This document shows, in pieces, positions 6,833 to 25,322 of a stretch of 35,784 bases of DNA. The DNA comes from Elusimicrobiota bacterium. GTDB taxonomy: Bacteria; Elusimicrobiota; Elusimicrobia; F11. Position 1 is the stretch's first letter, and the number at the start of each line of letters is the position of its first letter. The DNA lies in contig PLLH01000011.1 of the NCBI GenBank assembly GCA_003140895.1, positions 6,388-42,171 on the forward strand, written 5' to 3'. Position numbers and translations under genes: made by a program. A model generated the notes under the pieces. It did not search any database. It saw only the letters and a program-made list of their open reading frames with translations, and had not been told where the DNA came from.

Positions 6833-6868
6833 AAAAAACGCCTCTAGAAATAGGGGCGTTTTTTTTGT
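6833..6868 (+). terminator. Rho-independent terminator after nrdJ
   Basis: AAAAAACGCCTC-TAGAAATA-GGGGCGTTTTTTTT: GC stem plus U-run about 30 nt after the stop. Confidence 0.85.
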
Positions 6869-6958
6869 TACAGATAATTTGCGTCTTCTTAAGGCCTTTT
6901 TCATCAAAAAAATAGAATTATGCGAATCAAAAAACACCTCTATTTTTAAACCTATTTG

Positions 6959-6996
6959 TTACAAATTATTTACAAAAAATTAATGACTTCTTAATC
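6959..6996 (+). promoter_or_regulatory. Phased TTA-type direct repeats upstream of the giant ORF (TTACAA, TTACAA, TTAAT, TTAAT; includes TTAA-N7-TTAA)
   Basis: TTACAA at 6959 and 6970, TTAATGACTTCTTAAT from 6980. Spacing 11, 10 and 11 bp. Confidence 0.45.
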
Positions 6997-7026
6997 CCCC
7001 CGGAACCATGTTTAGTACAGGGGAGG

Positions 7027-10000
7027 ATGTATATGTGGAATGTTTTAGCGCACAAGACTTTTAATGCGTTTCGATGGGGAGAGGCCATCCGGAAATGGCT
7101 TGCCACCTCTCTCTCCTTCTTCTTCTTTGTTTCAAACGTGGTTCTCTTGAACGCTCAAGAAACGAATGTTTGGACGGAGCGTCGCAAGAGCGTTCAATCG
7201 CTTGAAAACAGTATTTCCTCGACGGAAAAATCCCCTAAGAATGAATTCAAAATCGCGTATAACACACTGGCGCCTTCCTTCTCTCCTGGATCGTCGCCGA
7301 AGCTCGACATAAACCGGTTGTATAAAACAGAAAAAGCCGGAGACATCGTTCCGGCGAAAGCCGTCCAAATGGATCCGCGGCTGGCGGCCATCCCCCAGAA
7401 CGCCGGCACGATCAAAGAAGTGTGGGTCCGGAAAACTCAAACCTCTCCCTTGGTTGTGTTGATTCAAGACGTCCATTTGAATAACGAAGCGCAGGAAAAC
7501 ATCGCCACGATTCTGACGTCGTTACAAGGCGTGAGCGAACAAATGGGACCTCCCGCGAAATTTGTGGTGGGCGTTGAAGGAGCCTTTGGCCCGTTTGATT
7601 TTCGCCGGTTCCGCGCGTTCCCCAACAAAACATTCACCCGGGAGATCGCGCGTTTCTTTTTGTCGAACGATAAAATTTCAGCCCCCGGTTTTGTCGGACT
7701 CACGCGCGACAATCCTCCGGCGATGGTTGGAATCGACGATCCCGCCGCGTATGAAGCCAACGTGGCAGCGTACCGAACGTCTGTGCGCCACCAGTCGACG
7801 GTCGAAGGGAGCATTGAACAGGCGAAAGCTCAGGTGGAACAGGAGAAGGCCGCAACACTCAATGCGCGGCTCAAGGAATTTGACCGCCTCCAACGGTTGC
7901 ATGGCGAGGGGAAGGTGGGGCTGGCCGAATACGCCCGTCAAATGGAGTCTCTGTTGTCTCGGTCGGGGGGTTCGGACGCGGAACGTTCCGATGGAGACGG
8001 GTGGAGCGCGCGAGAGTTGGTGCTTGAACAGTTTTTGGCCGCCGCCTCGTTAGAACAGAAATTGGATTTTGCTCACGTTGAGCGCGAGCGGGCTCGCGTC
8101 GTCGAAAAGTTGGCCCGCCTCTTGAGTCAATCGGAGTTGGATGAGTTTGTCGCTCAAAGCCTTTCTTACCGGGCGGGCCGCCTTTCGTATTCCGACTTCT
8201 TTAGGACGATTCAATCTCTCATGGCGCGTCATTCGATTTCCATGGAAGAGACGCCGGCGTTTTCCAATTACATCCGCTATGTTCTCCTCTCCGACGGCAT
8301 CAACCCCGAGCGGCTGTTTTCCGCTGTTCAATCCTTGGAGCGGAGCGTTTTAAACGCGCTGGTTGAAACCCCCGCTGAAAAGGCGTTGATGCTTAAGTCG
8401 CGCAAACTCTTTTTGGCGGGGCGCCTGGTTCAATTCGCTCTCACGCCGAATGAATGGAAAGAATATTCTCAGATCAATCTTTCTTTGCCGGTTGATGGGG
8501 CTCACGGGGCCGCCGGATCCGGCTTCGATTCTCTCTTGGCGTCGTTCGAACAGTTTTATGTTCAGGCGGATCGGAGAAGCCAGAAAATCATCGGCCATCT
8601 GCTTAAGGAAGCCTCGAGTGAAGGTCACGGGACTCTTCAAGCGCTGATCGTGGGCGGGTTCCATACGCCGGCCATCACAAACATTTTGAAAGGGCGTGGC
8701 CTCTCCTACGCGGTGGTTCAGCCCAAGATATCCAAAGTCGACGGGACCTCTGGAACCAGCTACCTCTCTATTTTCTCCCGAGAGAAAACGCCGCTCGAAA
8801 AAATGTTTGAAGGAGAGAAACTCACTTTGGCGCCGACGCAGATTTTGATCGGGAGCGATCCTGCGAAAAATCCGTCCGCTTTGGCGATCACCAATGAAGC
8901 CTTGTCTGCGATGGCCGTCGAACGATGGGCGGCGGGGAATCAATCCCTCCCACCGGAGACGGGCGTGTCTGTCTCACGCGACGCTTCCGGCGCTTGGAAT
9001 GTTCTGATCGCGTATGCGAACCGGGTGATCAGCCTCCTGTTGGTTCAAGGAGACGGGAAGCGGCCCTCGGGAACCCGGGTGGTTCAACGCGTCGTCTATC
9101 CTATTATTGGAACCATCCAATATCTTGCGAAAACGCGTCCGATGGCCGAATCCTGGTTCCCGCTTCTCTCCGTCGCATTGATGAAATGGGTTTTGCCTTC
9201 CATGGGAGGAGCGTGGGCGTTGGCGGTGGTTTTAAATGCGGTCGTCTTTACCTTCCTCTTCCATGTCAATACCGTGAATGGCCGATGGGATGTGAAGCAG
9301 ATCGCCGCGCGAATCGTTGGCGCTTCGTACCTCATCGCCGCCGGTTGGGGGTTGGCTGATCCGCTTCTGTCCCTGGGGCATTTCTCATTGTTCCTTGGTT
9401 TGACGATGGGGTTCCATGCCCTTTGGAACGCCGCCATGAGGGCGATGGGGCGCGACGAGTGGCAACTTTCGACGTCGTCGGGGCCCGCCGATACAAAGAA
9501 AAAACCGGGATCAAATAAGGTTGTTGGTCCGGGTGACACCATCGTCGGACTTGAGGGGGACACGGCGGTCATGAAGGGGGCGGCCCTCCTGTCGATATTG
9601 AAAAACAAAGGCACCGGGCCCAACGTGTTCATCAATCGCATCAACGCGGCTCTCCTGGCCAAACGGCCGCTTGATATTGCCGATGCCGATATTCAGAGTC
9701 TTGAGAAAATAAAAGGACAAGAAGGGAACGCCCAAAGAGCTCGCCGGAGCCGGTCCAAATTGGCGGCGGAGTTGATCTTAACTGAATCCCATCTCGATGT
9801 CCTTCGCCAGTTGATTGTGTTGATTCCCGAGTCGGCGGATCGAGCCAATGCACAGAAGCGGGTTGAGCGGTTGGGGCGGGCCCAAGAGGACGCGTTTTTT
9901 GCCGAGCTTACTGGAGATATCGAAAAAGGCCAGCAGGAAGAACGATTGACGAAGCAACGCTTGGCCTCTGTCTCCCGCAGACCGAAAGCGGTTGCGTCGG

Positions 10001-13000
10001 CAAAGAAAAAATCAGATCAGGACGCTCTCATTCGCCAGAGCCAAGAGAGGATGCGGCAACTTCTTCGTGACATTCGGACGGGCGGCGTGAAGGCGCAGTG
10101 GAACGCCTTCGTCGAGCTTCGGACGGTGTTGCTTGAGTTGAAAGCGAAAGGTGTGTCTGCGACTTTCTCGCCTGAGACGCTGAAAGAATTAAGAGACATT
10201 CAGGCGAAGCTCAAAGCGAGCAAAACGAAACCGTCGGCACCGGCTCTCGTTCCTGTTGAGGTGAAGCAGGCGGAAACAACCTCCGTTACTGTTCCAGCGA
10301 ACGCTGTCCCAGCGAACGCTGCCCCAGCGAACGCTGTTCCAGGGGACACACTGGCTTCCTGGACGCGGATTCTTTGGAAAACTGCCGTTGTCGGCGTCTT
10401 GTTGTTGACGGCGTTTCTTGTGGTGACCTACGCGCCCGGTTATGTGAGAGGCGTTCTTCAAGCCACGGATCTCACGTATTGGGGGTCCTCCAAAAATATT
10501 TTAACGGCGGCCGCGTTCATCCCGCAGGGATTTCAATTGGCCGGAGCCCGGCTCACGTATCTCACGGTTCGTTTTATTCTGGTTGTTTTTGAAGCCGCCT
10601 ACCGAACATTGTATGCCGTGGCGCGCCGAACGATGAATATCTCCGGCGGAATTCGCTACAAAGATGAAGAAGGCAAACTGCATCAAGATGGGGTTGAAGT
10701 TGATTTTCTTTCAACGGAGGATGAACTTCAGCGGTCGCTCCACCAGAGATTTCAAATTGATTCAAAGGAATTAAACGGGTTTAGCCGCGCTCAGCTGCTT
10801 CGCCTTTATTTCAAGCTGGATTCAGAAGACACGCGCCGGGCGGACGCTCAGCGGGCCGAGGTCAAAGCGCAAGCCGAGAAGAACCGGTCCGCCCAACCCT
10901 TCCTGGCTCATGTTTATTGGTTTCCCATCCACTTCCCGCTTCATTTACTTGTTTTTCTTCGGGACTATTTCTTTGAAACGGATTTAAAGAGAGCGGCGTA
11001 TCTTCGTTCCGGGCGGTTCCTTAATCATTTGGGCCATGACGCGGCGGCTCAAACCTTGGTCCGGGCGGCGATACAACAAGTGAAAGAAGAAAAGCAGAGC
11101 GTTGGAATAGCCCAAGCCTGGGTCGTGTGGTTCAGCCGCACCAATGTGGCGCTGGCGGGGTTGGGAGGCTATCTCTATCGACGTATCCGGATCACGATCT
11201 TCGGCGCCCTCGGCGGATGGATCTTGGGCGGAATCGCGTATGCCATTCCACAGATCGCTTACGTTAATGCGGATGGTTGGATTCGCCGCCTCCTGCCTCC
11301 ATTGCCGAATTCAAACGTTCTTTATCGTTATGTAAGCCTGTCCCTCAACCATCTGTCGTTTAACGTCGTGTCCATCACGAGCACCTTTTTCACGGCGTTC
11401 GGCTTGCAGTTTGATTCACAAGTGCGGCGCATTCATAAGGCTGTGATGACTCGCCTCGCCGCAGATATGGGAGCTTCTTTGGACTACGATGCCCTCCACA
11501 GTGAACTGCTAAACCTCATGACCCAAGTTCGAGAAGCGAAAAGAGGGTCCGAAATAAAACCGATCGCAGATCGCCTCTCCAACATCCGGGGAATGATGGA
11601 CGCGCGAAAGAATATGAAGTGGTGGAATTTGCGGCGTTTCTCGTTGGGGCAATTTTCAGAGGGAGAATCCGCCGCTTTAAAAGCGCAAATGTTCGAACTG
11701 ACGAGCGTGATAAGCCGGCGCCTTCCCAGTCCCCTATCGCTGAATTCGGAGGCGTCGCAAAAGGTTTTCGAGCAAGCCCCTTCGCTATTTTCAATGACGG
11801 TGTTGAAGGCGTTTTGGGCGGACATTAAAACGTTGAGCTTCTGGTGGACCCTGGCCAAATCCATGACGGGGATGTGGACGTTGGGAGCGGAAATCTCGAC
11901 GGTGGTGGAATTGGCCGGCGATCTCGGCTATAGCGCCGGAACCATCACCGGGGATGGCGAGGCGGGGCGATGGTTCGGGCACAACGCCGCCAATTTGCTC
12001 GAAGGAGAAAACGATTCGGCTATGTCTTTGATGGGCGATTTGCAACGGTTCACATTGGGAGCTGCCGGCTTTATCTCTGCTCCGGCGCACAGGGAACTCG
12101 TGAAGGAGTCCCCTGTGAATCCGGAGAAGACGGCCAAAGCGGTTCCGGTTCAGAAGGACGAGGAGCAAAAAGAGGACGCGCCGCAACCCAAAGAAGGAAA
12201 GAAAGCGGGGAAGAAAGAACCGCAAAAAGAAAAAGAATTGGTTCCGGTGGCGTTTGAAAAATACACCTGGGTTGATGAACGCGCCCGCGTGTCGGGAGCC
12301 AAATGGGCGTTGATGGCGAAGTCCATGGAAATCAACGGGCGCGACGTGATGGAAAAAACGGGCGTCCCCGTTGAGTTGCCGGACCTTCCCAAGGATCCGT
12401 TCGGCATGCCGATCGCTTTGGTGAACGCGGCGGGCCGACCTCTCGCCGAACAGGATCTCGATCCGGCCGATATCTTTTTCCAGTTCACGGATGGAACCCA
12501 AGTTGCAATGAAAGAGGCGTCGTTCGATGCGGGGACCGAGTCTTACTCTCCGCCGGCGGGGAAGAAGTTCGTCCCTCTTCTATTGCCCTTGGACAAAGAA
12601 CTGAATTATCGGGACGCCGATGGACGAGCGCTCCGCGACCGAAGCGGCCGCCTCTTGCCTCAGACGGGGTTCCGGCCTCTTGGGAAGGACATGAATGACC
12701 GGTCCGTTTATTGGATGGACCTGGACGGCCGCGTCACCGCCGCGTATCCGGAAGGAAAAGTGGCCAAACCCGTTAATCCTCTGACGGGAAACGAGGTGTT
12801 GCTGGAGCCCGATCTGGCCGGGGCGAAAAAGGCCGCGGATCAGGCGCAGACGGATTTTATACGGGCGAAGAACAAACTGACCGTCATCGAGCGGCAAATG
12901 GCGGATCAAAAATCCATCGCGTTTGAAGTGGACGAGGATTTTAACATCGTTCCAAACAAATCGTTTAAATCAAAAGCCGAGCTTCCTCCTCTCGCGTTCT

Positions 13001-16000
13001 ACCGGTTTCCGGCTCCCGGGAAACCGTTGGTTGAATATGATCCTTACCTTGAGCCGGATCGCACGGCGGATATGATTAAAGCCGATGACGGCCATGAAGT
13101 CGTTTTCACTCGTTGGGGCGATACACGGGTTGAGGAGACGGCGAAGAACGCGCAGATTTCCAAAACGGAAGCGATCGGCGCCTGGTCCACCATGGCGACA
13201 CTGGACAGCTTGGACCAGCTCATCACATGGGATGAGGCCCTTCGATACAACCCGATTAATAGCCGTCAGCAAATGACTCAGAAATTTTATTTGGCGCTTG
13301 AGAATCGAGCCACGTTGAGCCCGGACGCCGGGCTTGTTCCTGTTTATATGTTCGTTAAATCGGATGACGGCCGGATCATCCCGATTCCCGATATGAAGAT
13401 AGCTGTTAGGTGGATGGAAAAGGCCAAGATTCCACCGACGCTCATGGCGGCCTTGCTTGGAGACGAACATTTCCTGTTCACGTCGGAAGCCAAATGGGAT
13501 GGCATGGAGCTCATTACCAACGCCTCTCCTCATTTTAAAGAAGCCTGGCTTCAATGGTACGGGAGCATCCGGCAAGCCCCGTACGCCGTCCTCGTTAAGC
13601 CTGATATGAAAGCGCCGAAAGCGTTCGTTTCTCAAATGGAACTCATCAATCAATTTGGGCGCCAGGAGGCGGAGACCTTCCAGAAAGAAGGAGCGGTCCA
13701 GTTGCCGGATGGAACGTGGGCGGTGAAATCGTGCTTGGGATATAAAGTGAATGCCAAAGGAGAAGTGATGGAATGGTTTTCCGATCCTCTTCTTCTTCAC
13801 AAATTTCTTGAAAAGGACGACTTGCTCTATCGGTTGAGCAACGGAGACGTGGTTCCTCTTTATCAGATACCGCTCAATCTCCAGGCCAAAGGGGTGCGCG
13901 TGGTTGAAGTTGTCGATCCCAAGGATAACACGGCGATTCGCTTGGGCAGCGAATGGGAACGAATCACCTATCTCATGGGCCAATCAGTCCGATTGGAACA
14001 GCAGTGGCGGGTTAAAAACGCGCCGGGCGGAGCGATGCCCATGCGAGGCGGACCCAGTGGCGCGCCGCGATTCGACAAAATGGACAATCTGCCTGCCGTG
14101 ATCGGTTCGGCCCCCTCCGGCAAGCACTGGTCCTATGATTGGGAGCCTCGTTTTGAAATGGAATGGATGGGATATCTGAACTTTCTTCAAAAGGCCATTG
14201 AGACGATTCAGAATCCGGGGATGAAAGCGGAGCTCGTTAAAAAATACCGGGAAGCGATGGAGACCCGTTCCTATGACATTCATCCGGCGGCGCATGCCAC
14301 TCCTTACATACCACAGATTCGAGACACGCCAACCCATTTCGTCATTCTTGGATCTCCGGAGCAACGCGTGGCGCAGAGTTGGAAAGAAATAAGCGCTCTT
14401 CAGAGGACGGCTTACATGGAGGACCTGAAACGGACCGGCGGTGGAAAAATCATCGTCCCCGGTGGAAAGCAACTCGATGCCATTGAGCGCTATCAGGACG
14501 ACGCGCGTTCCATATCGGAGGAGATGACGAAGGTGATGGATCTTCTGGCCCTGAAAAACCAAGATCCGAAACAAGTGAAAGAACGCCGCGCAACGCTTCA
14601 GAATCTTAAAAAGGAATTTGCCTCGTTGGATAAGAAAATAAACATGGAAACCGTCGCCTATAACAAAACGACCGAAGCGTGGGCCAAGAAATACAAGAAC
14701 CGGGCGCATATATCGAAAGGAAATATGGATCCACCGGGGATTGAGCGGTTTCAGGGTAGCCAAGAGCGCTATGCGGCCGCACGCAAAGAACAGAAGGAGT
14801 ATTTTGAGAGGACGGCACAACTCAGGCAACAAGCGGCCAAGAATGCCAGAGATAAAACATGGTTCGAGAACCAAATGAAAAAATCCGCCAAGGACGACAC
14901 CTATATCGATGCCGATGGAAGCCGGGTGGTCCTGATCACGCCGTTTAAAGAGGCGATTCGCGGCGAAGACCGCGCCAAGACGCAAACCGTCCAGGGAGGA
15001 GAGCGGTTGGTGATTATGGCGCAGATGCTGGCCGGCGAACCATTGAATATCCGCCGGCAGATGAAGGTCGGCGACAACGATCCCTCGCATGCCAAAACGT
15101 TTCTTGAGACGATCGAGGCCCATCGGGCAGCGAAAAAAGAATATCTCAAAATGGCCGAGGGAAAAATGGCCGCGGAACCCGAAGGCGCGCGGAAGACGGT
15201 CATGAGAAACTATAAAGAGGCAGTGGAACGAGATGAAAAATCATTCACGTTGACTCAGGGCGGCGTCAGAAATACGTGGGCCGTGAGTCGGGGCGGCGCC
15301 ATTCATGAAATGATCGATCCCAAAGACCCGTTGAATCCGATCGTTTATTTTGAAACGGTCGACGCAGCGAAGGCCGTTGAAAAGGCGTTTATCTCGTCGT
15401 CAAAGAAACGGTTGTACGACAATCCTCCGCCCAATGAACGGGCGGAAATTGATATCAGCTTAAAGGCGGCTCAGACGGATAACGTGGTGTCCTATCGAGA
15501 AGACGGCAAGAAAGATGGGCGGATTCACATATGGGCGCTTTTCCCAAGTATAAAGGACGCGGAAAAGAATAGAGATGAGAAGCTGGCCCAATTGAATAGC
15601 GCTCGAACGAGGAGCGCCGCCGGCGTGGACAGCATCATTGTCTACGACGTTGATCCGAAGAGCGGAGAAACAAAACTTATTACCGAGGCCGCGGAGGTTC
15701 AGAAGCGAGTCTCGGAGCTGGCGTCACTTAAGAGTTCGTTGGCCCGGCGATATCAGGAGCGTAAGGCCAATCCTGCGGCCGATCCCAATGCGCCCTCATT
15801 GGTTAAGTTGGCTTCGGCGCTGCAGGAAGTGGATCGGGGGATCTATTGGAAAGACGGCCATCAATTCGTCGTTCAGTATGGATTGAAACAAGCTTCGGAG
15901 AATTTTGCCCGGCGTCTTGATGACTACAACAAAGTGTGCGGCAAAGAAGGCCGGGAGCGCCAATTTTCTTTACTGGATACGCAAGATCGCCCTATCGGCA

Positions 16001-19000
16001 CCGTCCTGACGAACGGACATGTTTATTTAACGACCTTGGCGAGAGTGGTTGAAACCAATCCGGACGGGACGACTGAAGTGGAGCTTAAAACATACGCGGG
16101 GCGTTCTCCTCCGACGGACAAAGAGAAGGGAAACCTTGTCGGCGTGTCATTGGAACGGGTCGATGCTCAGGAGCGGGTCCGTAGCCAAATCTCGGGACCT
16201 TTGAATGAGAACGGAGAGTTTGTCCCTCTGTTCTACACGAAAAATAATTTTTCCGGGCCGCTGGCCTTGGGAAAACAGCCCGCCAAAAGCCAAACGTACC
16301 ATTATCGGCCGGAGATGGCAGATTCTGATTATACGAAGCACCCCGAGTTGTATCTGGATAAGTCTCATGTCGTGGAGCGGACCAAAGACGGGGGGGCCAT
16401 CAACGAGCAGATGAGCGCGTTGGGAGCCGTTTGGAGAGAAGTGAAGGATGGCCGCGGCCGGAAAACCCGCACGATCGAAGGACGTTACGACCCCACTGTT
16501 CCGGAGGAGAAAGATCCCTTTAGGCCGTTACGGGAGATTCGTTCGGAGTACGAGGACGCGGATTACGCGGCTCTTAATATTCCATCCAAATCATCCGTTG
16601 TCGACGTGGACTCTGAGCGGTCTCTGGGGTGGTCAAGAATCCTCACCTCGTATGACGAGTACATCAAGACCAAAGAAATTAAATATGAGAGGTGGTTGGA
16701 TCAGACAAAGGAACTGACGTGGGAGGTGAAGGATTCGAACGGACAGCTGGTCAGGAAATATAAGCTGGGTCCTGACGGCAAGCCTCTTAATGTCACATTT
16801 TTCGTTTATTCCTTCGACGGGCCGAATACCTACGGGCGCCTGGGGTTGGCGGATGAAGCCTACACGTTTGTCACCGATGAGAACGGATTAATCAAGGGAG
16901 GGATTGATCCGGCCACCTTTAAAGGCGACGTGTCCACTCTCCCGTATTTCGAATACACCGAGGTTGTTGCCGTGGATGGGGTCGGCCCCGACACGCGTAT
17001 TATTTACCGCATCAATACGCGCGGGGAGACGCGCGGGGAGAAGGGGAAGGACTTTGAGCATAAGCAGGAAGTCAAAAGCGGCTCCGGCGATCTCGTTGAA
17101 ATTCACACCGGCCAGCGTATTAACGGCAACACGGCGTTCATCCCTCAGAAAATCACCTTCAACGATTATGATTACGGACGAGACGGATACGGGCGCATCG
17201 GCGTGACCCATCTTTCCCGCACCTTCGCCGTCCGCTTTAACAACGGGCACACGGGCCATACGTTCAATCTGGCCACGTTGCATTTTGATGAAGGGGCGCG
17301 CGTGATCGGTTTTGATGAGAACGGGCAAATGACGCGCCAATGGTCCATGAAAGACGGCAATGAGTTCAAGGATGAGGCGGGGACCGTGATTCCCCGCTCC
17401 GCGTTGTGCTCTCTCCCGCTTCAGAAGAATGTTTCGCGGATCGCGATTGTTGATCCGGATGGGGTTCTTTTCTACGAGTTGACCCTGCAGGAAGAGTCTC
17501 ATATCGACAAGATCGCGGGGAACGGTGACCTCACCTATAAGCGCGACGCCTTCAAATACGTTTTCGATCCAGAACATGGGTATCGTTGGCGTCGCGTTGT
17601 GCAGTCCCAGTTTAGAGACACCATTCAACAGGGGCATCGCACCGTGTCCGTGAATCTTAAAACCGGAGAAGAATCGAACGTCGCGTATGACCCCGAGAAA
17701 CGCATGAAGGCGGGGACCGCTTCCTCTTCAAGCCGACCGTCTTCTCTCATCAGCCGCGGGACGAACAACGTTCTTGAAGACGTGGTTCCGGAGAGGGAAG
17801 GCCTGATGCGCAGTCCCTATTTGCCGGATCTGCCAGAGCGATATTGGCGCGTGTTGAGGGTCAACAGCAAAAACCGCGAAGGCGCGGTGTCTTACTCGGG
17901 GCGACGCTGGGTGGACGTGTCGGGAGAGACCGTGGTGGAGGTGGTCGACAAAGGATCCGAAAATGGAGAGCTGCGCCAGCATGTGTCATTCCACGTGTCG
18001 GATATGGACGAGGTTCCCTATAAGAAGATGCGTCTTAACCCCGGCGTGAATGCGTTTGATGAAATGTCGTTCGCGGCGAACAACGGGAAAGGCGAACCCG
18101 TCGATCTCACCGATAACGATACCCGGTTCATCTATTTTTATGTTGACGACCTTCAGATGACGGGCAAACCGCTGGAATCCCTTTCTCTCACCCTGGAAGA
18201 CGCGAACGGCAAGAGCGCCACCATTCGATCAAAAGATGACGGCAAAAACGGCTCACCGCATTTTTGGGACATCGTTGTGGGTCACAAAGACACCATTGTC
18301 GACGGGGAAGGCCGCTCTCGCGCCACTGCGGATATGGTGTCCAATTCCCTTTACGCCGCCAGCCGCGGCCAGGTGTTTGCTGTCCGGGTCAAAGATCTCC
18401 GGGATCATATCGACATCACCCAATTGCGTCCGTCCGCCACGCTGAAAGTGGCGGCGTCCAACGACTTGCCCACCTCTCTTCGCGTCAGCCAAATTTACCG
18501 GGCCAGCCGCGGCGCTGGGGAGACGAACTTTACCGAGAGACAAAGTGAACCGTCAAAACGACTGTCAACTCTGACGTCTTTTGTGGAAGTGGGGCCGTCC
18601 GGTCAAACGGCGTTCCTGGACGAGTCCAAAGAAGGGAAGGAGGGGTATTCCGTTCAGCTGCGCGGAGGAGACAACCGGCTCTTGGGCTATGTGCGCGTGT
18701 ACCGGTTTAAAACACCCAACGGCGTTTTGCAGGAACACCGCCGGCTGATTGTGATCGACCAGGTGGGCCGGTTCCCGTTGGCCAGTTTCGGTTTGGTCAA
18801 GGATTCGAAGGGAACCTACCAGGTTGATCCCAAAGACAAAATCCCGTTCACCGTTTTTGAAGAGGGGGATGATATCTACGTGGTCGAAGAGGATCCGGTG
18901 TCTGTCACGACGCCTCGAACGCGCATCGTGTCGCACTACAAAGCGCGATCATTGGATCCCAGCGTTCCGGTTGAAATGCAGTTCGGAGATTTCAGCCGTC

Positions 19001-22000
19001 TTCCGGCCGTGAGCGAAGAAACATTGCGGAGCACGGCCTACAACCGAATTTTCAACAACGGGTTTATTCAGATTCTTCGCCGCGTGGGCGGCGAAAAGCT
19101 GGGACTCATTTCCATCTCCAACGTCAACGTGTCAGATGCGGAAATCGCCGCCGCCGTCAAAACCTTGGATCTGGAATTGCTGGGCAAAGTGAACGAGAAG
19201 CTGGACAGCGTGGCCAAACCGGTTAACAACGTTGTGATCCCTGAATTTCGTTTGAGCCGGATCTTTTCCGTCTCCGGCGCCATTTTGCTGGCGATGCTCT
19301 CCATCCTTCCGTTGATCCTCATGCAGGCTCTCGCGCGCTATCGGAAGTGGAATGCCGAAAATCAGAAACGAGAAGCGTTGAAGAAGAAGCAAGGAGAGAG
19401 CCGTTTCGCCCTCTACGACGATGCTCTCATGCAGAGAGCGTTGGAACGATTCAATAAAAATGTGATGGATGTCAACGTCCGGCTCAACGAGGACGGTCAG
19501 CCGGTGTTGGTTTCAAGCAATGGGTATATCGAAGGCGCTTTCTTGGGCCACTTGTTTTTAATTTACCTGCTGGCCTTTTCGGCCGAGGTGAGAGCCTATG
19601 GCGACGTTGAGGCGGATCAACGATTGACTCGGCTGGACGACTTCGCGAAGTCGGTATCGAAATATCTTTCCATGAAAGTCGGGCAAGGGTCGGACCCGGG
19701 CGTGGCGAGAACCTATATGGCCGGAAAATTTGAGCAACAGATTTGGAGTCAACTGGAAATCTACCTCTCCTCGTTTGCGGAAAGAATAAGAAACGCCTAT
19801 ATCGACGATTTGTCCCGCGTGGCCGCCGGCACGATGCCGGAGGTTCTCCATAACGGGTCGTTTGAAAATGCATTGGCCGCCATGTATCAAGACGCCCTTC
19901 GTCCTGAAACCGAGCGTGACGATACGCATATCCGCGTTTTTGACGAAGAGAATATGAGAGCGTTTGTCAAAGATCATCGTTTTGAGGAAGTTCCCGGGGC
20001 GTTTATCACGTTGGCGCGCCACCTGGTGAAACTGCTCCCGGCGGTGTGGGGCATACTTGTGTTTCGAGCGGGAGATTTCCTTTTCGCGGGCGTTCCCGTT
20101 CTCCTCTTGTTGACGCTCGTGGGCCTCGTCGCCGCTACCGTTATTATTAACGCGAGAACGGAATATAAGATGATCCGGTCGGCCCGCGTCAGCGATCCAA
20201 TGCAAGGCCGCCTTCGCGCGCTCTTGCCTCTCATGGCTGTCGCGGAATCCGCGTATCTTTGGACCGCCTATGGGAATGCGTCGATGTTTACAACTCTCAC
20301 CCTTTTCATGTTGATACTTCTCATGACGGTTGAGGCCGCGGGGATTCTTTTGCCTCGAAAAGCTATTTTTGGAGGGAACCGCTCTCTCATCGGCGTGGCA
20401 TGGACCTATCACGCTCGGCCCTCGGGCCCCATCGGGTCCACCCGGGCCATCGTTATGGTTTTTGCCGTCACATGGCTCTTCACGTTCGCTTCCATCGCGC
20501 TGGGGTCGACGGTCATTCCGTGGTTTCTGGAGAAATTTACCAACGGCGAGGTGATGAGAGTTCTCCTCGTGTGGACGCTGTTCATTTTGCGTCTGCCGCT
20601 CCTTCATCACGGCGTTAACACCTTGGTTCGATTCGGGTTTTCGGCGCTGGCACCCACTCGTGGAGCCAAGAGAAATCCCAACGCGAAAATCCCCGAGGAT
20701 TACATGATGGCCATCGCGCATATCGGGGGGCAGACCATGGCCTCCAAGAACGTGGTTGATGATTCTTCCATTGGAAAGACTGAGATTGACTTGGCAAAGA
20801 TAAAGAAGACGCTAAAAGAAAAAGGGCGGGACATTGACCATCTGATCCTGGCCCAATTTTCTTCCGTTGACGAATTTGACAAAAGCGATAACCAGGAAAT
20901 GGAAAAGAAACTGAAGAAGATCACGGACATGAAAGATCTCGCCGGTAAGATTGATTTGACTCCTTATCGCCTGAGAACCAAGACGCGTCGCCTGTTGGAT
21001 GGCGTTCTTAACATGGTTGGGAACGGCCAAGAGCCTCAGCCGCAGGAAATCACCATCCTCAATAAGGCGTTGTTGCAGGACATTTATGTGGATGAGCTTA
21101 TGAAGAGCCGTACCACCACAAAATGGGCGGGATCATTTAAGAATTCATTTATTGATCTCTTGAACAAAAATCCACGGGGAAGACAAACGGTTCTATCCGT
21201 CGTGAAATCAGCTTTGAGTGACAAGCGGTTGGCCGTGGATCCACAGGTGTTAAACGATCAACCGGCGCTGTCGAAATTGGTTGAAGGGTGGCTTCTGGCG
21301 TTGTTTGAAGAAGAGGAAGAAGCCGATGAGGGGCGCGGGACGACGTTGTGGAACCTGCGCCAGATGATGGATCCCACGATGCCCGAGGCCCTCAAAGTGG
21401 CTCAGGGGCGCCCGGCGTCCCGGCAGGCGGCGGTTGAATATGGATATCGGATTGAGCGGATGATCATTGAAATTTTGCCGATCGGCGGAAGCAGCATTGA
21501 TACGGCCATGAGTTTTGTTGACTTGGCGGAAGCCGCCGCCGATGAAGGGATTGCCCAGCATATCGTCTTGTACAACGGGTTTAACCAATATGACGCCCAC
21601 AACGATCAATCGAAATCCCCCGAAAAGATTTCGGTCATGAGCGGATCGGAAGTCGGACAGCGGGCCAAGCACGGACTTCTTTTGGCGCACGTGTCTCAAC
21701 GCGGGGATAAGCCGGGTGTTCGAACCTATGTTTGCTACAACCACACGGTGTACGGGCTGAAATCCGCCGGGATGCATGAGATTCTGATGGTTCCGGAAGA
21801 GCTTCCCAAAATGAAATCCATGATCATCACCGATCGGAACGCCAAAGCGCTTAATGTGCGTCAGTTTGTTAAGAAAGATATCCGGCGCGTGATGGAAAAT
21901 CCCAACATCGCCATCATGGTCGCCTCGAGGAATACGACCTATGTGTTGGACGATATGGGGTGGACCTCCTTCGCCATTGAAGGCGGCCACGGGCAGGCGA

Positions 22001-25000
22001 TGCTGGCGATACCGGAGAAGACCGGGACCGGGTGGATGAACATCCAACGCACGGCGTTGTGGGAGTCTTGGAAAGAGCTGGGGGACCCAACCGCGTCTCT
22101 TCGGTCCTTTGTTAATAACACGTCGAACGATTTCGGAATGATTCCCTTTTCACCGAACGCCATCGGCATCAGCGAAGATTATTGGAGCGTCCTCCAACAG
22201 GTGTACACGATGGTTTCATTAGGGTTGGAGCCCGAATTCGCTTTATCAGAAGCGTTGGCTCAAAAGGATCGCGAGAACAAAACGTATGCCGAGTGGAAAG
22301 CCGCTCCGCCGCGGTGGTCCGCCGGAGGATTCCAGGCCACGGAGGCGATCATTAACCAACAGGTCCATGAGTTTGGCCCGACTTCATTCTTTGAGCGGGA
22401 AGTTCGGGCGACCAGTCTGGATCACTATTCGTTGGGCCCGCTCATCTTGTTGGATATTCTTCTGATGCCTCTCGCCATCGTAAACGATCTATCCCCGTTC
22501 GTGGGCGTTTCGCTTCTTTTGTGGATTCCCGGAATCATCTTGAACCAGATTTCCACGTTGAATTCGTGGTTGGCTTACCGTCGATCCATGGGGTTCTGGT
22601 CAGGGACCTCGTTGTGGTTCATGAATCGCATTTCAGATTCAATGCTGTTTCCCTCTCGCGTTGTGCGAGACGCGTTGGCTCAGTTATCGGGCGCGCGCGG
22701 TGTTTCCTATGAATTCAAAATCTCCGGGGCTGGAGGGGGCGGGCCGTGGAGCGCCATCTTCCCGTTCATCAAAACCGTTGAAAAAGGCAATAAGAAAGTC
22801 ACGGGATTTATTTATAAAGAGACGGTACTCCTTGACGGGCCCGATCGAGGGAAAGTAGAACAGCGTATTTTGACTCTGAGAGGCGCACTGGTGAGAATCG
22901 TGGCCGCGAAAGACGCGACCGGCGGGCTTAACGGCAACATGAAGGAAATCCACAGCTTCTTCTGGACGTTTGTGGTGGGGCTGGTTCTCATCGGCGTTAA
23001 CGTGTGGGCGTTGCAGTATTTGGATGCCACCAACGTCTTCATGATGTTATTTTCGCTTTGGTTTTCCGTGGCGGTGGCGTTCGGCCCCATGGTGAAAGAC
23101 GCCAAGAAGGGGAAGATGGTGTGGCGTGGCGCGGGGGATTGGATTTCCAAATTATTGGGGCACGCCCTTGGATTTGGAGCCCTGATGGCGGCCTCGGTGT
23201 CGCTGCTGACGGTGTTCTCAATGCCAATGACTTTGGGGGGCGTTCTGGTGGGCCTCGCCGTGGCGGCGGGGGGCGCGGCCTTTTCTTATTTTGGGCTCCT
23301 TCGTTCCATCAAGGCGCTCGACAAAGCGAAGAAGCTTAGGGCGGTTCGATTTCTGTCTGAAATGCACCGGGGATTTTGGCTGAACTTATTTCTGTTCGGC
23401 TGGTTGGTGTTCGCTCCTTTTCCGGCCGTTTTGCGCTTCGATATTTTGCCTGGAGTTCCGATCGTGTTTACTCCCGGCGGGTTCCTCTGGTCTTTCCTCG
23501 TTCCGTTCATGGTCACGGTTGTTGCGATCATTATGATTGGACGCGTGGTCGCTTGGGTTCAAGGGATCCGTGTTCAGCGTCGACTCGTTGTTCTTTCGAA
23601 TCGCGCTAGGGAGCTTCGCGGTCGGCGCTATTCCGCGGACTCTCTCGTGGACGCTCTCGCGACTCAAACGATCACATTCATCCAACAAGGGTCCTATCGG
23701 ATGGCCAACAAGAATTTGGATGAAATGGAAGAGATTCTTCAATTTGACGAAATACGGAAGGAGCTGATATACCTGAGAAAGGAGATCGTGACGGGCCGCA
23801 TGACCAATGCTTCTCTTCAGGATCTTTGGAAACAAGCGGCGAAAGATTACAACAAAGCCAACTACAAAGAGGCGCTGACCTGCCTGGATCAGATTCTCAA
23901 GATCGCGGGGGTTCCGATGGCCACGGCGGGAGCCATGGGTTTCTGGAAACGGTGGACAAGCAATGTGGTTCACATCGGGCGGATCGAAGGTTTTGTGACG
24001 GCGTTGGTTTCGTTGGGTGTGTTGACTCTGACGTCTCCTCAAGGGCCTCCGGCTTTTCTGCAAATCCTGTTGCCGTTTGTATTCGCCGCTGTTCTCGTCT
24101 TCGCCCTGTTTGTGGCAGGGCATCGGTTGACGGGAGTCCTGGATCCCACCCGGCCTCGGCCCGTCACTGGATGGGCAACCGTTATGAAAGCGTCGCTTGT
24201 TGCCAGCTCCGGACTTATCTCTCTCCCATTTTTGGGGCTGGGCCTCCTGACGCCTCCAGCCATTGGAGTGATCTTCATCGCGCTGGGCGCCCTGGCCGCC
24301 GCTTATGTTCATGGACGGCTGAATCAAATCATTGTTCGACGGGCGTATTCTTCGCCGTCAACTTTGGCTTCCGTTCTGACCGCCCAGATGAGCGCGCTGG
24401 AGAAAGCCAAGCAAGCCGATGATCGCGGCGCCGTTGGAATGGCGTTGGATCAAATCATTGATTTACAGGATTGGGGCGTTCGGGAATTTGGCTTAAGCCC
24501 CTCCTCGGCCCGTTATGACCGGCAGTCCCTGGATCGCCAACTCGCTGTTAATCAACAGGCTGTCGTTGATTGGTTCTTTGTCCTTTTTGATCTTCTTAAG
24601 GGTCGTTCGGGTCAGGAGGAGACAACATTGAAAGCGGTCTTGTCTGTTGGCCAGTCCGGCGCCGAAGGGAGCCTTGATAGGAAGAAGGGCGTGAGGACTC
24701 TGTTTATTCCAAAAGGTTCCGATCGATCGGCCGTCGAAAGAGAAATCAATGATTTGTTGGCTGTTGAGGAGTCCGCTTTGTCTCTCGCCTCCACCAAAAT
24801 TCAGGTTTTGTTGACGGGTTCACTGGAAGGCGCGGCGGAGGACTTTGAGAAACAATTCGCCGGGCGGGGGATGGAATTCTTGAAATCAAGCCGTCTTCAA
24901 AAGCTTCAGTCGGCTGATTTAGGAAAGAGTCTTTTCGGAGACACGTTCAACCGGATCACCTTATTCCGATTGCTCAAACATCGGGATACCGTCATTCCTG

Positions 25001-25173
25001 AATTTATTGAACAAGCCCTTCTTGAGCTGCAACGGGATGGATCCTTTAGCCGGGTGGCGGTTGAGATCATCATCTTTACAGCGCTTTCGTCCGAGGCCCT
25101 CGCTGTCAAAGCGAGCCTGGCGGATCTTGAACGCTTGGTGGCTTTCCGGCGGATTGTGGCCCGACAGGCCTAA
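7027..25173 (+). CDS. Giant membrane-associated multidomain protein of about 6,048 aa (function unknown)
   Basis: Single uninterrupted ORF. GGGGAGG RBS at 7020-7026 suggests ATG 7033 (MWNVLAHK) as the start. N-terminal hydrophobic segment KWLATSLSFFFFVSNVVLLNA. TM clusters occur in the N-terminal third and the C-terminal third. Confidence 0.9.
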   Translation: MYMWNVLAHKTFNAFRWGEAIRKWLATSLSFFFFVSNVVLLNAQETNVWTERRKSVQSLENSISSTEKSPKNEFKIAYNTLAPSFSPGSSPKLDINRLYKTEKAGDIVPAKAVQMDPRLAAIPQNAGTIKEVWVRKTQTSPLVVLIQDVHLNNEAQENIATILTSLQGVSEQMGPPAKFVVGVEGAFGPFDFRRFRAFPNKTFTREIARFFLSNDKISAPGFVGLTRDNPPAMVGIDDPAAYEANVAAYRTSVRHQSTVEGSIEQAKAQVEQEKAATLNARLKEFDRLQRLHGEGKVGLAEYARQMESLLSRSGGSDAERSDGDGWSARELVLEQFLAAASLEQKLDFAHVERERARVVEKLARLLSQSELDEFVAQSLSYRAGRLSYSDFFRTIQSLMARHSISMEETPAFSNYIRYVLLSDGINPERLFSAVQSLERSVLNALVETPAEKALMLKSRKLFLAGRLVQFALTPNEWKEYSQINLSLPVDGAHGAAGSGFDSLLASFEQFYVQADRRSQKIIGHLLKEASSEGHGTLQALIVGGFHTPAITNILKGRGLSYAVVQPKISKVDGTSGTSYLSIFSREKTPLEKMFEGEKLTLAPTQILIGSDPAKNPSALAITNEALSAMAVERWAAGNQSLPPETGVSVSRDASGAWNVLIAYANRVISLLLVQGDGKRPSGTRVVQRVVYPIIGTIQYLAKTRPMAESWFPLLSVALMKWVLPSMGGAWALAVVLNAVVFTFLFHVNTVNGRWDVKQIAARIVGASYLIAAGWGLADPLLSLGHFSLFLGLTMGFHALWNAAMRAMGRDEWQLSTSSGPADTKKKPGSNKVVGPGDTIVGLEGDTAVMKGAALLSILKNKGTGPNVFINRINAALLAKRPLDIADADIQSLEKIKGQEGNAQRARRSRSKLAAELILTESHLDVLRQLIVLIPESADRANAQKRVERLGRAQEDAFFAELTGDIEKGQQEERLTKQRLASVSRRPKAVASAKKKSDQDALIRQSQERMRQLLRDIRTGGVKAQWNAFVELRTVLLELKAKGVSATFSPETLKELRDIQAKLKASKTKPSAPALVPVEVKQAETTSVTVPANAVPANAAPANAVPGDTLASWTRILWKTAVVGVLLLTAFLVVTYAPGYVRGVLQATDLTYWGSSKNILTAAAFIPQGFQLAGARLTYLTVRFILVVFEAAYRTLYAVARRTMNISGGIRYKDEEGKLHQDGVEVDFLSTEDELQRSLHQRFQIDSKELNGFSRAQLLRLYFKLDSEDTRRADAQRAEVKAQAEKNRSAQPFLAHVYWFPIHFPLHLLVFLRDYFFETDLKRAAYLRSGRFLNHLGHDAAAQTLVRAAIQQVKEEKQSVGIAQAWVVWFSRTNVALAGLGGYLYRRIRITIFGALGGWILGGIAYAIPQIAYVNADGWIRRLLPPLPNSNVLYRYVSLSLNHLSFNVVSITSTFFTAFGLQFDSQVRRIHKAVMTRLAADMGASLDYDALHSELLNLMTQVREAKRGSEIKPIADRLSNIRGMMDARKNMKWWNLRRFSLGQFSEGESAALKAQMFELTSVISRRLPSPLSLNSEASQKVFEQAPSLFSMTVLKAFWADIKTLSFWWTLAKSMTGMWTLGAEISTVVELAGDLGYSAGTITGDGEAGRWFGHNAANLLEGENDSAMSLMGDLQRFTLGAAGFISAPAHRELVKESPVNPEKTAKAVPVQKDEEQKEDAPQPKEGKKAGKKEPQKEKELVPVAFEKYTWVDERARVSGAKWALMAKSMEINGRDVMEKTGVPVELPDLPKDPFGMPIALVNAAGRPLAEQDLDPADIFFQFTDGTQVAMKEASFDAGTESYSPPAGKKFVPLLLPLDKELNYRDADGRALRDRSGRLLPQTGFRPLGKDMNDRSVYWMDLDGRVTAAYPEGKVAKPVNPLTGNEVLLEPDLAGAKKAADQAQTDFIRAKNKLTVIERQMADQKSIAFEVDEDFNIVPNKSFKSKAELPPLAFYRFPAPGKPLVEYDPYLEPDRTADMIKADDGHEVVFTRWGDTRVEETAKNAQISKTEAIGAWSTMATLDSLDQLITWDEALRYNPINSRQQMTQKFYLALENRATLSPDAGLVPVYMFVKSDDGRIIPIPDMKIAVRWMEKAKIPPTLMAALLGDEHFLFTSEAKWDGMELITNASPHFKEAWLQWYGSIRQAPYAVLVKPDMKAPKAFVSQMELINQFGRQEAETFQKEGAVQLPDGTWAVKSCLGYKVNAKGEVMEWFSDPLLLHKFLEKDDLLYRLSNGDVVPLYQIPLNLQAKGVRVVEVVDPKDNTAIRLGSEWERITYLMGQSVRLEQQWRVKNAPGGAMPMRGGPSGAPRFDKMDNLPAVIGSAPSGKHWSYDWEPRFEMEWMGYLNFLQKAIETIQNPGMKAELVKKYREAMETRSYDIHPAAHATPYIPQIRDTPTHFVILGSPEQRVAQSWKEISALQRTAYMEDLKRTGGGKIIVPGGKQLDAIERYQDDARSISEEMTKVMDLLALKNQDPKQVKERRATLQNLKKEFASLDKKINMETVAYNKTTEAWAKKYKNRAHISKGNMDPPGIERFQGSQERYAAARKEQKEYFERTAQLRQQAAKNARDKTWFENQMKKSAKDDTYIDADGSRVVLITPFKEAIRGEDRAKTQTVQGGERLVIMAQMLAGEPLNIRRQMKVGDNDPSHAKTFLETIEAHRAAKKEYLKMAEGKMAAEPEGARKTVMRNYKEAVERDEKSFTLTQGGVRNTWAVSRGGAIHEMIDPKDPLNPIVYFETVDAAKAVEKAFISSSKKRLYDNPPPNERAEIDISLKAAQTDNVVSYREDGKKDGRIHIWALFPSIKDAEKNRDEKLAQLNSARTRSAAGVDSIIVYDVDPKSGETKLITEAAEVQKRVSELASLKSSLARRYQERKANPAADPNAPSLVKLASALQEVDRGIYWKDGHQFVVQYGLKQASENFARRLDDYNKVCGKEGRERQFSLLDTQDRPIGTVLTNGHVYLTTLARVVETNPDGTTEVELKTYAGRSPPTDKEKGNLVGVSLERVDAQERVRSQISGPLNENGEFVPLFYTKNNFSGPLALGKQPAKSQTYHYRPEMADSDYTKHPELYLDKSHVVERTKDGGAINEQMSALGAVWREVKDGRGRKTRTIEGRYDPTVPEEKDPFRPLREIRSEYEDADYAALNIPSKSSVVDVDSERSLGWSRILTSYDEYIKTKEIKYERWLDQTKELTWEVKDSNGQLVRKYKLGPDGKPLNVTFFVYSFDGPNTYGRLGLADEAYTFVTDENGLIKGGIDPATFKGDVSTLPYFEYTEVVAVDGVGPDTRIIYRINTRGETRGEKGKDFEHKQEVKSGSGDLVEIHTGQRINGNTAFIPQKITFNDYDYGRDGYGRIGVTHLSRTFAVRFNNGHTGHTFNLATLHFDEGARVIGFDENGQMTRQWSMKDGNEFKDEAGTVIPRSALCSLPLQKNVSRIAIVDPDGVLFYELTLQEESHIDKIAGNGDLTYKRDAFKYVFDPEHGYRWRRVVQSQFRDTIQQGHRTVSVNLKTGEESNVAYDPEKRMKAGTASSSSRPSSLISRGTNNVLEDVVPEREGLMRSPYLPDLPERYWRVLRVNSKNREGAVSYSGRRWVDVSGETVVEVVDKGSENGELRQHVSFHVSDMDEVPYKKMRLNPGVNAFDEMSFAANNGKGEPVDLTDNDTRFIYFYVDDLQMTGKPLESLSLTLEDANGKSATIRSKDDGKNGSPHFWDIVVGHKDTIVDGEGRSRATADMVSNSLYAASRGQVFAVRVKDLRDHIDITQLRPSATLKVAASNDLPTSLRVSQIYRASRGAGETNFTERQSEPSKRLSTLTSFVEVGPSGQTAFLDESKEGKEGYSVQLRGGDNRLLGYVRVYRFKTPNGVLQEHRRLIVIDQVGRFPLASFGLVKDSKGTYQVDPKDKIPFTVFEEGDDIYVVEEDPVSVTTPRTRIVSHYKARSLDPSVPVEMQFGDFSRLPAVSEETLRSTAYNRIFNNGFIQILRRVGGEKLGLISISNVNVSDAEIAAAVKTLDLELLGKVNEKLDSVAKPVNNVVIPEFRLSRIFSVSGAILLAMLSILPLILMQALARYRKWNAENQKREALKKKQGESRFALYDDALMQRALERFNKNVMDVNVRLNEDGQPVLVSSNGYIEGAFLGHLFLIYLLAFSAEVRAYGDVEADQRLTRLDDFAKSVSKYLSMKVGQGSDPGVARTYMAGKFEQQIWSQLEIYLSSFAERIRNAYIDDLSRVAAGTMPEVLHNGSFENALAAMYQDALRPETERDDTHIRVFDEENMRAFVKDHRFEEVPGAFITLARHLVKLLPAVWGILVFRAGDFLFAGVPVLLLLTLVGLVAATVIINARTEYKMIRSARVSDPMQGRLRALLPLMAVAESAYLWTAYGNASMFTTLTLFMLILLMTVEAAGILLPRKAIFGGNRSLIGVAWTYHARPSGPIGSTRAIVMVFAVTWLFTFASIALGSTVIPWFLEKFTNGEVMRVLLVWTLFILRLPLLHHGVNTLVRFGFSALAPTRGAKRNPNAKIPEDYMMAIAHIGGQTMASKNVVDDSSIGKTEIDLAKIKKTLKEKGRDIDHLILAQFSSVDEFDKSDNQEMEKKLKKITDMKDLAGKIDLTPYRLRTKTRRLLDGVLNMVGNGQEPQPQEITILNKALLQDIYVDELMKSRTTTKWAGSFKNSFIDLLNKNPRGRQTVLSVVKSALSDKRLAVDPQVLNDQPALSKLVEGWLLALFEEEEEADEGRGTTLWNLRQMMDPTMPEALKVAQGRPASRQAAVEYGYRIERMIIEILPIGGSSIDTAMSFVDLAEAAADEGIAQHIVLYNGFNQYDAHNDQSKSPEKISVMSGSEVGQRAKHGLLLAHVSQRGDKPGVRTYVCYNHTVYGLKSAGMHEILMVPEELPKMKSMIITDRNAKALNVRQFVKKDIRRVMENPNIAIMVASRNTTYVLDDMGWTSFAIEGGHGQAMLAIPEKTGTGWMNIQRTALWESWKELGDPTASLRSFVNNTSNDFGMIPFSPNAIGISEDYWSVLQQVYTMVSLGLEPEFALSEALAQKDRENKTYAEWKAAPPRWSAGGFQATEAIINQQVHEFGPTSFFEREVRATSLDHYSLGPLILLDILLMPLAIVNDLSPFVGVSLLLWIPGIILNQISTLNSWLAYRRSMGFWSGTSLWFMNRISDSMLFPSRVVRDALAQLSGARGVSYEFKISGAGGGGPWSAIFPFIKTVEKGNKKVTGFIYKETVLLDGPDRGKVEQRILTLRGALVRIVAAKDATGGLNGNMKEIHSFFWTFVVGLVLIGVNVWALQYLDATNVFMMLFSLWFSVAVAFGPMVKDAKKGKMVWRGAGDWISKLLGHALGFGALMAASVSLLTVFSMPMTLGGVLVGLAVAAGGAAFSYFGLLRSIKALDKAKKLRAVRFLSEMHRGFWLNLFLFGWLVFAPFPAVLRFDILPGVPIVFTPGGFLWSFLVPFMVTVVAIIMIGRVVAWVQGIRVQRRLVVLSNRARELRGRRYSADSLVDALATQTITFIQQGSYRMANKNLDEMEEILQFDEIRKELIYLRKEIVTGRMTNASLQDLWKQAAKDYNKANYKEALTCLDQILKIAGVPMATAGAMGFWKRWTSNVVHIGRIEGFVTALVSLGVLTLTSPQGPPAFLQILLPFVFAAVLVFALFVAGHRLTGVLDPTRPRPVTGWATVMKASLVASSGLISLPFLGLGLLTPPAIGVIFIALGALAAAYVHGRLNQIIVRRAYSSPSTLASVLTAQMSALEKAKQADDRGAVGMALDQIIDLQDWGVREFGLSPSSARYDRQSLDRQLAVNQQAVVDWFFVLFDLLKGRSGQEETTLKAVLSVGQSGAEGSLDRKKGVRTLFIPKGSDRSAVEREINDLLAVEESALSLASTKIQVLLTGSLEGAAEDFEKQFAGRGMEFLKSSRLQKLQSADLGKSLFGDTFNRITLFRLLKHRDTVIPEFIEQALLELQRDGSFSRVAVEIIIFTALSSEALAVKASLADLERLVAFRRIVARQA
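7441..8740 (+). other. TraB/TIKI/ChaN-like N-terminal region of the giant protein (tentative)
   Basis: LVVLIQDVHLNNEAQENIATIL...FVVGVEGAFG...MVGIDDPAAYEAN...LQALIVGGFHTPAITNILKGRGLSYAVVQPK resembles the GxxH / xxEG / GGxH...L..G pattern of this superfamily. Confidence 0.4.
10291..10350 (+). repeat. In-frame 15-bp tandem repeat ((G)TTCCAGCGAACGCT; VPANA), about 3.5 copies
   Basis: GTTCCAGCGAACGCT / GTCCCAGCGAACGCT / GCCCCAGCGAACGCT / GTTCCAGGGGACACT (last copy degenerate). Confidence 0.9.
12090..19240 (+). other. Predicted ~2,400-aa soluble region of the giant protein between membrane blocks
   Basis: The region lacks long hydrophobic segments. It starts with a Lys/Glu-rich linker (KDEEQKEDAPQPKEGKKAGKKEPQKEKE) and ends before the TM IFSVSGAILLAMLSILPLILMQAL. 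Confidence 0.55.
17017..17040 (+). repeat. Perfect 12-bp in-frame tandem duplication ACGCGCGGGGAG x2 (TRGETRGE)
   Basis: Directly visible: ACGCGCGGGGAG at 17017-17028 and 17029-17040. Confidence 0.9.
21460..22760 (+). other. GT2/cellulose-synthase-like glycosyltransferase core, possibly degenerate, in the giant protein (tentative)
   Basis: Ordered elements: IIEILPIGGSSID, DRNAKALN (compare KAGALN), NIAIMVASRNTTYVL (where a DxD strand is expected), GISEDYW (compare TED), PPRWSAGGFQ (compare QxxRW), then TM helices. Confidence 0.35.
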
Positions 25174-25178
25174 AAAAT

Positions 25179-25219
25179 CTTAATCACTTCTTAACCTGTT
25201 CTTAAGGCGATCTTAATCT
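25179..25219 (+). promoter_or_regulatory. Four perfectly phased 11-bp direct repeats CTTAAN(5-6) (Pho-box/OmpR-family-like; TTAA-N7 x4)
   Basis: CTTAATCActt / CTTAACCTgtt / CTTAAGGCgat / CTTAATCTgcc starting at 25179, 25190, 25201 and 25212. Confidence 0.6.
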
Positions 25220-25251
25220 GCCAAATGACATACTAACCACGCAACATCTGA

Positions 25252-25270
25252 GCCGGTGACATTCATCGGC
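25252..25270 (+). repeat. Small hairpin GCCGGTGA-CAT-TCATCGGC
   Basis: 8-bp stem with one G-U wobble and a 3-nt loop, directly abutting the larger inverted repeat. Confidence 0.6.
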
Positions 25271-25322
25271 ACAACTAAACAGGGGTCAGATTAGGTTAGG
25301 GGTCTGACCCCTGTTTAGTTGT
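25271..25322. repeat. Perfect 20-bp inverted repeat (ACAACTAAACAGGGGTCAGA ... TCTGACCCCTGTTTAGTTGT) with 12-nt loop; REP/MITE-like
   Basis: Left arm 25271-25290, loop TTAGGTTAGGGG, right arm 25303-25322. A nested palindrome GGGGTC-T-GACCCC lies at 25299-25311. Confidence 0.9.

Follow-up and report, generated by a model that had tools for sequence, protein, structure and literature searches.

The locus and its 18.1 kb open reading frame

The window, that is, the whole stretch of DNA analysed (35 784 nt), is part of an Elusimicrobiota genome of 2.53 Mb in 118 contigs. Its forward strand carries an open reading frame (ORF) of 18.1 kb (7027–25173; 6,048 aa), which contains neither a stop codon nor an N; the five remaining frames across the same interval are closed by 81–254 stops. 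ATG 7033, with GGGGAGG 6 nt upstream, appears to be the likelier start. The upstream neighbour nrdJ, which encodes a class II ribonucleotide reductase (3018–6803, + strand; Pfam PF02867/PF08471), is followed by a strong intrinsic terminator (6832–6865, + strand; RNA fold −19.7 kcal/mol, z −7.3, then a U run), and the next gene downstream, ndk (25325–25849), is convergent to the giant ORF. Given the nrdJ terminator on one side and convergent ndk on the other, 7027–25173 can fairly be read as a single-gene unit, in agreement with the first-pass annotation, which had described one monocistronic frame. Elsewhere in the window, a 330-aa ORF without a Pfam match (28979–29971, − strand) is flanked by a PAS/V4R histidine kinase and a GAF-HD protein.

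A search for co-linear homologues, as proposed in the first-pass annotation, yielded a full-length match of 5,988 aa in the independently assembled genome G002 (Candidatus Obscuribacterium magneticum) and, in a third genus, one that is cut off by its contig and covers aa 2233–6048. The G002 protein is 39% identical over 5,175 aligned residues, to a similar degree from end to end, and is encoded directly downstream of the nrdJ C-terminus, that is, beside the same neighbour. A second copy in the source genome lies on contig C16 and is broken by three 2-nt N gaps. The full-length G002 homologue directly after nrdJ rules out an assembly join, and the homologues in G002 and the third genus, together with the C16 copy, show that the frame exists over its entire length and has been maintained. 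Although other family members in the source metagenome-assembled genome (MAG) carry 2-nt N gaps or meet contig ends, the ORF in the window has 6,048 codons free of stops and Ns and co-linear homologues in two further genomes; the chance of an assembly artefact or a random open frame is negligible, and the giant ORF is real. The nearest named relatives, identified by a head-alignment search, are Elusimicrobia MAGs, the closest being Candidatus Obscuribacterium magneticum; the organism belongs to the Elusimicrobiota and not to the Omnitrophota, which the first-pass annotation had named among bacteria with giant genes.

The features of the protein are all encoded on the + strand. The N-terminal signal sequence (7027–7161), recognised from alignment A1 and hydropathy, consists of a basic and a hydrophobic stretch followed by E/Q-T-N-x-W, a style common to all members of the family. 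Next come the TIKI/ChaN-superfamily-like head (aa 127–566; 7405–8724), assigned from its catalytic set, AlphaFold2 and PF04187 matches in relatives, and an N-side membrane block (aa ~700–805; 9124–9441), located by hydropathy. The corresponding block of the homologue retains FxxxH and HxxxN; the CPBP/Rce1-like resemblance is faint, and Pfam is too weak to classify it. A second membrane block (aa ~1110–1680; 10354–12066) is common to the C16 paralogue (BLASTP 25%, E 4e-29). It is followed by a long predicted soluble segment without a Pfam domain (aa 1700–4080; 12124–19266), which is 27–48% identical to G002, block by block. This segment of ~2,400 aa had been called repeat-bearing, a description that was not borne out: neither BLAST nor hhalign detected internal repeats in aa 1700–4090. 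Tandem repetition within the gene is clearest at 10289–10342 (54 bp), where a 15-bp minisatellite codes for (PANAV)n. This linker minisatellite was seen in two family members (window 10289–10342 and L047 3911–3948), and one family contig breaks at it; such minisatellites may split giants in assemblies.

A third membrane block (aa ~4085–4540; 19279–20646; hydropathy) precedes the best-conserved core (aa 4690–5250; 21094–22776), which is 52% identical in G002 (alignments A2/A5). Its motifs DRN, SED and PRWxxGxxQ are reminiscent of GT2 enzymes and are conserved in four of four sequences or nearly so. The GT2-like core proposed from the sequence thus holds at the level of motifs only: searches for GT2 affiliation against PDB sequences, against OpgH and BcsA (hhalign) and against plasmid proteins (tblastn) gave nothing significant, and an AlphaFold2 model of the core from four sequences (pLDDT 39) was discarded. 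The C-side membrane block (aa ~5650–5765; 23974–24321) occupies a position common to most members, ~370–270 aa before the end, and the C-terminal domain (aa ~5790–6048; 24394–25170) has a helical tail ending in ...IVARQA-COOH. Pfam (1,000-aa tiles) and NCBIfam searches of the window protein returned nothing usable. The earlier view of an exported or membrane protein with two far-apart membrane blocks and a helical C-terminus is upheld.

The head, the C-terminus and the cargo

The putative catalytic set of the head comprises D148-x-H150 (7468–7476), E184 (7576–7578), R517 (8575–8577) and G-G-x-H546 (8662–8664), all on the + strand. D148, H150, E184 and R517 are invariant in 77/77 head sequences and H546 in 75/75; further invariant residues are Q147, Q156 and G235, as well as G543 and G544 (75/75). 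In 58 of 77 sequences H and E are 28 residues apart (H-to-E spacing), and 28 is also the commonest distance from R to H. RRSP, a structurally characterised endopeptidase of the TIKI superfamily, has E-x-H, an E at +28 and an Arg 29 residues before the last His, and its 2His/2Glu catalytic set is essential (PMC6254334); in stand-alone ChaN proteins from other genomes of the class the H-to-E spacing is 26–29. The head thus resembles the TIKI/ChaN/Ere superfamily (PF04187 and relatives; RRSP, HopBA1, Bcr135, ChaN; PMC6254334) in its 2His/2acid set, the Arg before the last His, the five predicted core strands and the H-to-E spacing of 28. It differs in that D replaces E in E-x-H, in a helical insertion of ~290 aa before the last two core strands, and in being the N-terminal head of giant membrane proteins.

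The AlphaFold2 model of the head (mean pLDDT 81) places the five core strands in the order expected and includes the helical insertion; pLDDT is mostly >90 at strands 104–110, 141–145, 194–198, 499–505 and 522–528 (module residues). Foldseek, which had also been proposed in the first-pass annotation, found no significant PDB match for the whole head model, and a PDB sequence search with the head profile gave nothing significant. Alignment with ChaN by hhalign was weak (P 0.02 for the whole head; 0.002 and 0.08 for the core). One family member exceeds the PF04187 cut-off (31.2 vs 27.7 bits), which serves here as a tool threshold and does not imply membership of PF04187 itself; the window protein scores below the gathering threshold, and dozens of giant ORFs have sub-threshold matches at the same segment (last strand). 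The TraB/TIKI-like region noticed after the signal sequence is accordingly supported by the invariant catalytic set, the modelled strands and the PF04187 matches in relatives. Because Foldseek was non-significant and the hhalign match to ChaN weak, membership of the TIKI/ChaN superfamily is regarded as probable; judging by the conserved residues, the head is likely to be catalytically active.

The locus had been described as having no clear overall family. This proved wrong: the first ~600 aa (signal peptide plus hydrolase-like domain) are present in 20 distinct ORFs of the source genome, the giant ORF included, in 18 of 41 close-kin genomes, and in 63 of 295 genomes (31/90 genera) sampled across the phylum, where up to about 56 first-look head candidates were found in one genome. 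A single-sequence scan of genome contigs detected no relatives, and an alignment-based scan 105. By summed ORF length, the family takes up at least ~57,000 codons or 171 kb of the source genome, that is, 6.8%; several members extend past the ends of their contigs, so these figures are minima. Downstream of the head, the members of the source genome are mutually unrelated by BLAST, with the C16 paralogue as the exception. No copy of the head was found on known phages or plasmids. Distant heads (24–28% identity) occur in Omnitrophota-titled records, three of which carry the head, and in one 'Chlamydiae' MAG. The copies in L134, L135 and L137 (Omnitrophota-titled) are stand-alone heads of 520–586 aa, and L134 additionally has a 2,683-aa ORF with a head of its own. 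The head very probably marks a class-wide multigene family under a common regulon.

The opposite end of the proteins is constant as well. A terminal Ala is present in all 14 complete members of the source genome (Fisher P 6e-14; background 9%), and in 32 of 47 members from other genomes plus the window gene, compared with 20 of 233 control ORFs. The last ~75 aa of the members have a common helical pattern, and a tail profile (A4) recovers 11 members of the source genome, one of these ORFs being the second half of a contig-split member. That the free C-terminus is conserved suggests that some partner recognises it.

Between the constant ends lies variable cargo. Pfam matches in the source genome include PP2C, Clp-like AAA+, an ABC1-type kinase, a protein kinase with GHKL ATPase-like stretches, a glycogen debranching enzyme, PPDK with GNAT, a PEP-utiliser with GlpX, a MoxR-type AAA with a WD40-like propeller, an AAA_11/12 helicase and LpxC; those in other genomes include M48, PP2C, transketolase N, aminotransferase V, PIG-L, radical SAM, CheR and subtilase, among others. 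The LpxC, GlpX, PP2C and PtsI-like stretches score far below housekeeping cut-offs. Active-site motifs are retained in the PP2C cargo (RNED, DGxGG) and in the LpxC-like cargo (EH, HKxxD, GxGH); a canonical LpxC is encoded elsewhere in the genome. The sole GlpX-type FBPase match of the genome is a split, low-scoring one within a giant (G000:C16 81302–82099, L045). In the membrane blocks, CPBP-like FxxxH..HxxxN motifs were found in 15 of 96 N-side blocks, vs 1.6 in shuffles, and Pfam matches in single members comprise an Rce1-like one (best 7.8e-6, one member) and M50 (3.4e-4); the window protein has no Rce1-like or M50 Pfam match. L044 has an M50-like HEAAH...AGPLTN membrane domain (aa ~700–790) beside a Clp-like AAA+ (1118–1247, continuing in L161), a predicted pair resembling a membrane protease–unfoldase.

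The family promoter and its candidate regulon

Upstream of the giant ORF, four direct repeats in 11-bp phase (GTTAC, TTTAC, ATTAA, CTTAA), followed by a −10 element, form the family promoter (6958–7016, + strand). The consensus within the source genome is TTTAC, TTTAC, CTTAA, CTTAA in 11-bp phase with TAnAAT ~11–12 bp downstream. A position weight matrix (PWM) from which the window gene had been left out during training scored the window promoter at 34.0, compared with at most 9.3 for 20 shuffled windows, and additionally detected L035 and L044, both outside the training set. Among members of the source genome with an intact 5′ end, L034 alone has no promoter site. In other Elusimicrobia, the two-repeat core lies upstream of 44 of the 85 family ORFs with enough upstream DNA (1.7 expected), the G002 homologue among them. 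In a genome-wide count based on one exact pattern of the strict core and on individually examined loci, the core was present at 31 sites, whereas its reverse occurred 7 times. Roughly half of the 31 sites stand before family genes. In L036, L040, L041, L046 and L050 no more than a few to ~9 nt separate the −10 element from the start codon, suggesting leaderless or near-leaderless mRNAs for several giant genes.

The box also precedes an exported ORF of >2,100 aa. Another site lies before an ORF of >3,650 aa (L229+L234; G000:C91 from 46.5 kb, continuing past N gaps) that consists of YD-like repeats '..SNDGFGNITVGTI.Q.YD..LLRRTGQAK..' and has no TIKI head. Further sites stand before genes for PorV/UPF0164-like outer-membrane proteins, identified by eye (L227 1248–3341 and L228 2023–3048), of which the L228 gene sits in a run of small exported proteins. 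An orphan box of four TCTTAA repeats in 11-bp phase (25180–25217, + strand) follows the stop codon of the giant ORF. Behind it, no ORF is present (25180–25322); the same interval contains a 22-bp perfect hairpin (−49 kcal/mol, z −7.3), the sequence of which was not found among the other loci examined. Perhaps the orphan box belongs to a short RNA that would be antisense to ndk at its end.

PhoB/SphR Pho boxes consist of 8-bp direct repeats with 3-bp linkers (11-bp phase) and a CTTAA core (PMC1906773). The family box resembles them in its 11-bp phase, its CTTAA core and its position about 10–12 bp before the −10 element (PMC1906773), and differs from them in having four repeats of two types (TTTAC ×2, CTTAA ×2) and in preceding giant surface-type genes. 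A Pho regulon in the strict sense is unsupported, since on the genome's own phoBR-porin-pstSCAB contig (C63) no site exceeded 8 bits. From the form of the promoter, we infer a regulon under a candidate OmpR/PhoB-type regulator.

Possible function and relation to known systems

The favoured reading, to which a probability of roughly 0.55 is assigned, is that of coordinately induced, Sec-exported giant carriers with variable cargo, most likely for dealing with other cells. An OmpR/PhoB-type response regulator would bind the four phased repeats and switch on the set. The signal peptide would direct each chain to Sec export, the TIKI-superfamily hydrolase head would come to lie at the outer face of the inner membrane, and the membrane blocks would anchor the chain. 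The variable middle would be the cargo or business part, which in the window member may be the ~2,400-aa soluble domain together with the conserved membrane-embedded core. The C-terminal domain with its free Ala end could be recognised by a partner, for instance a sorting factor or a PDZ-type, tail-specific protease. At the cell surface, the set might then be used on other cells in adhesion, antagonism or predation. Both the lineage-variable expansion and the fact that the regulon also takes in repeat giants and outer-membrane proteins tilt the balance towards a role facing other cells; a role in cell–cell interaction is in itself a tentative assignment, and predation is suggested by analogy with other phyla. 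A point against the carrier reading is the ATP-dependent cargo (AAA+, kinase, PPDK), which would be strange in an extracellular location.

Resemblance of the cargo to housekeeping enzymes (LpxC, GlpX, PPDK, glycogen debranching, PP2C, kinase) would fit a different assignment, in which a stress-type regulator controls a set for the cell's own envelope stress or homeostasis and the cargo enzymes remodel or police its own envelope and metabolism. The Pho-box geometry of the promoter (PMC1906773) points the same way, as does the member in which a Clp-like AAA+ adjoins an M50-like HEAAH membrane domain. However, with a canonical LpxC present the basic pathway does not need the LpxC cargo, no box was found on the phoBR-pst contig, and the lineage-variable paralogues, 20 or more in number, give the impression of diversification directed at something external, so that this assignment is doubtful. 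Rather unlikely is a self-processing polyprotein, in which the TIKI head and intramembrane-protease-like blocks would cut the chain and free the cargo enzymes. Endopeptidases do occur among TIKI members (PMC6254334), and the CPBP-like motifs, the M50 and Rce1-like matches in single members and the free, conserved C-terminus are in its favour, but many members have degenerate protease-like membrane blocks or none, a cleavage-site motif was not detected, and the window member has no protease-type Pfam match. The window protein might also be a stand-alone envelope polymer synthase or exporter built around a GT2 core, its function unrelated to that of the other giants, which comes close to what the first-pass annotation proposed. 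The high conservation of aa 4690–5250 and the position of DRN, SED and PRWxxGxxQ next to TM helices agree with this. It is nevertheless quite improbable: profile and pairwise searches and the low-confidence core model lend it no support, and members without a GT2-like core have the same head, tail and promoter.

Extended to its limit, the carrier reading would describe a new carrier–cargo system of the Elusimicrobiota, and perhaps the Omnitrophota, in which one regulator controls 20–50 TIKI-headed, alanine-tailed giants whose interchangeable cargo of repurposed enzymes is displayed on, or delivered into, other cells. This is speculative; if true, it would account for a large part of the 'giant gene' phenomenon in both groups. 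The shared promoter and constant C-terminus shift the question from a single odd gene to a regulon, and together with the common head they turn poorly conserved giants into a definable gene family. New handles are an active site to mutate, a tail for recognition tests, a promoter by which the inducing condition can be sought in transcriptomes, and a profile for finding members in any genome. No literature on the family's TIKI head, its alanine tail or its promoter was found in a search that did not cover bioRxiv and most subscription journals and is weak evidence to that extent.

CdiA-type polymorphic toxins and MARTX combine constant carrier parts with exchangeable cargo, and the Elusimicrobiota family is organised likewise, without a recognised sequence relation. 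Unlike these toxins, it has the variable part inside with both ends constant, the cargo is metabolic or regulatory in look, and there are neither immunity genes nor a known secretion partner. An assignment of the window gene as a polymorphic toxin of the CDI type was rejected because its C-terminus is the constant part and the next gene is convergent ndk, not an immunity gene.

In previous reports, the huge ORFs of Omnitrophota and Elusimicrobiota are presented as poorly conserved and poorly understood (PMC10066038; PMC11573180; PMC12057145, citing the West-Roberts 2023 preprint), and Elusimicrobiota are already on record as rich in huge proteins. Lipocone domains were noted in gigantic Omnitrophota proteins in a 2025 survey (PMC12419801). 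The present family resembles the giant ORFs of Omnitrophota and other PVC-related phyla in that its members are giant, exported and TM-bearing, have few Pfam domains and occur several to a genome. It differs from those giants, as there described, in being defined by a constant head, a constant tail and a common promoter.
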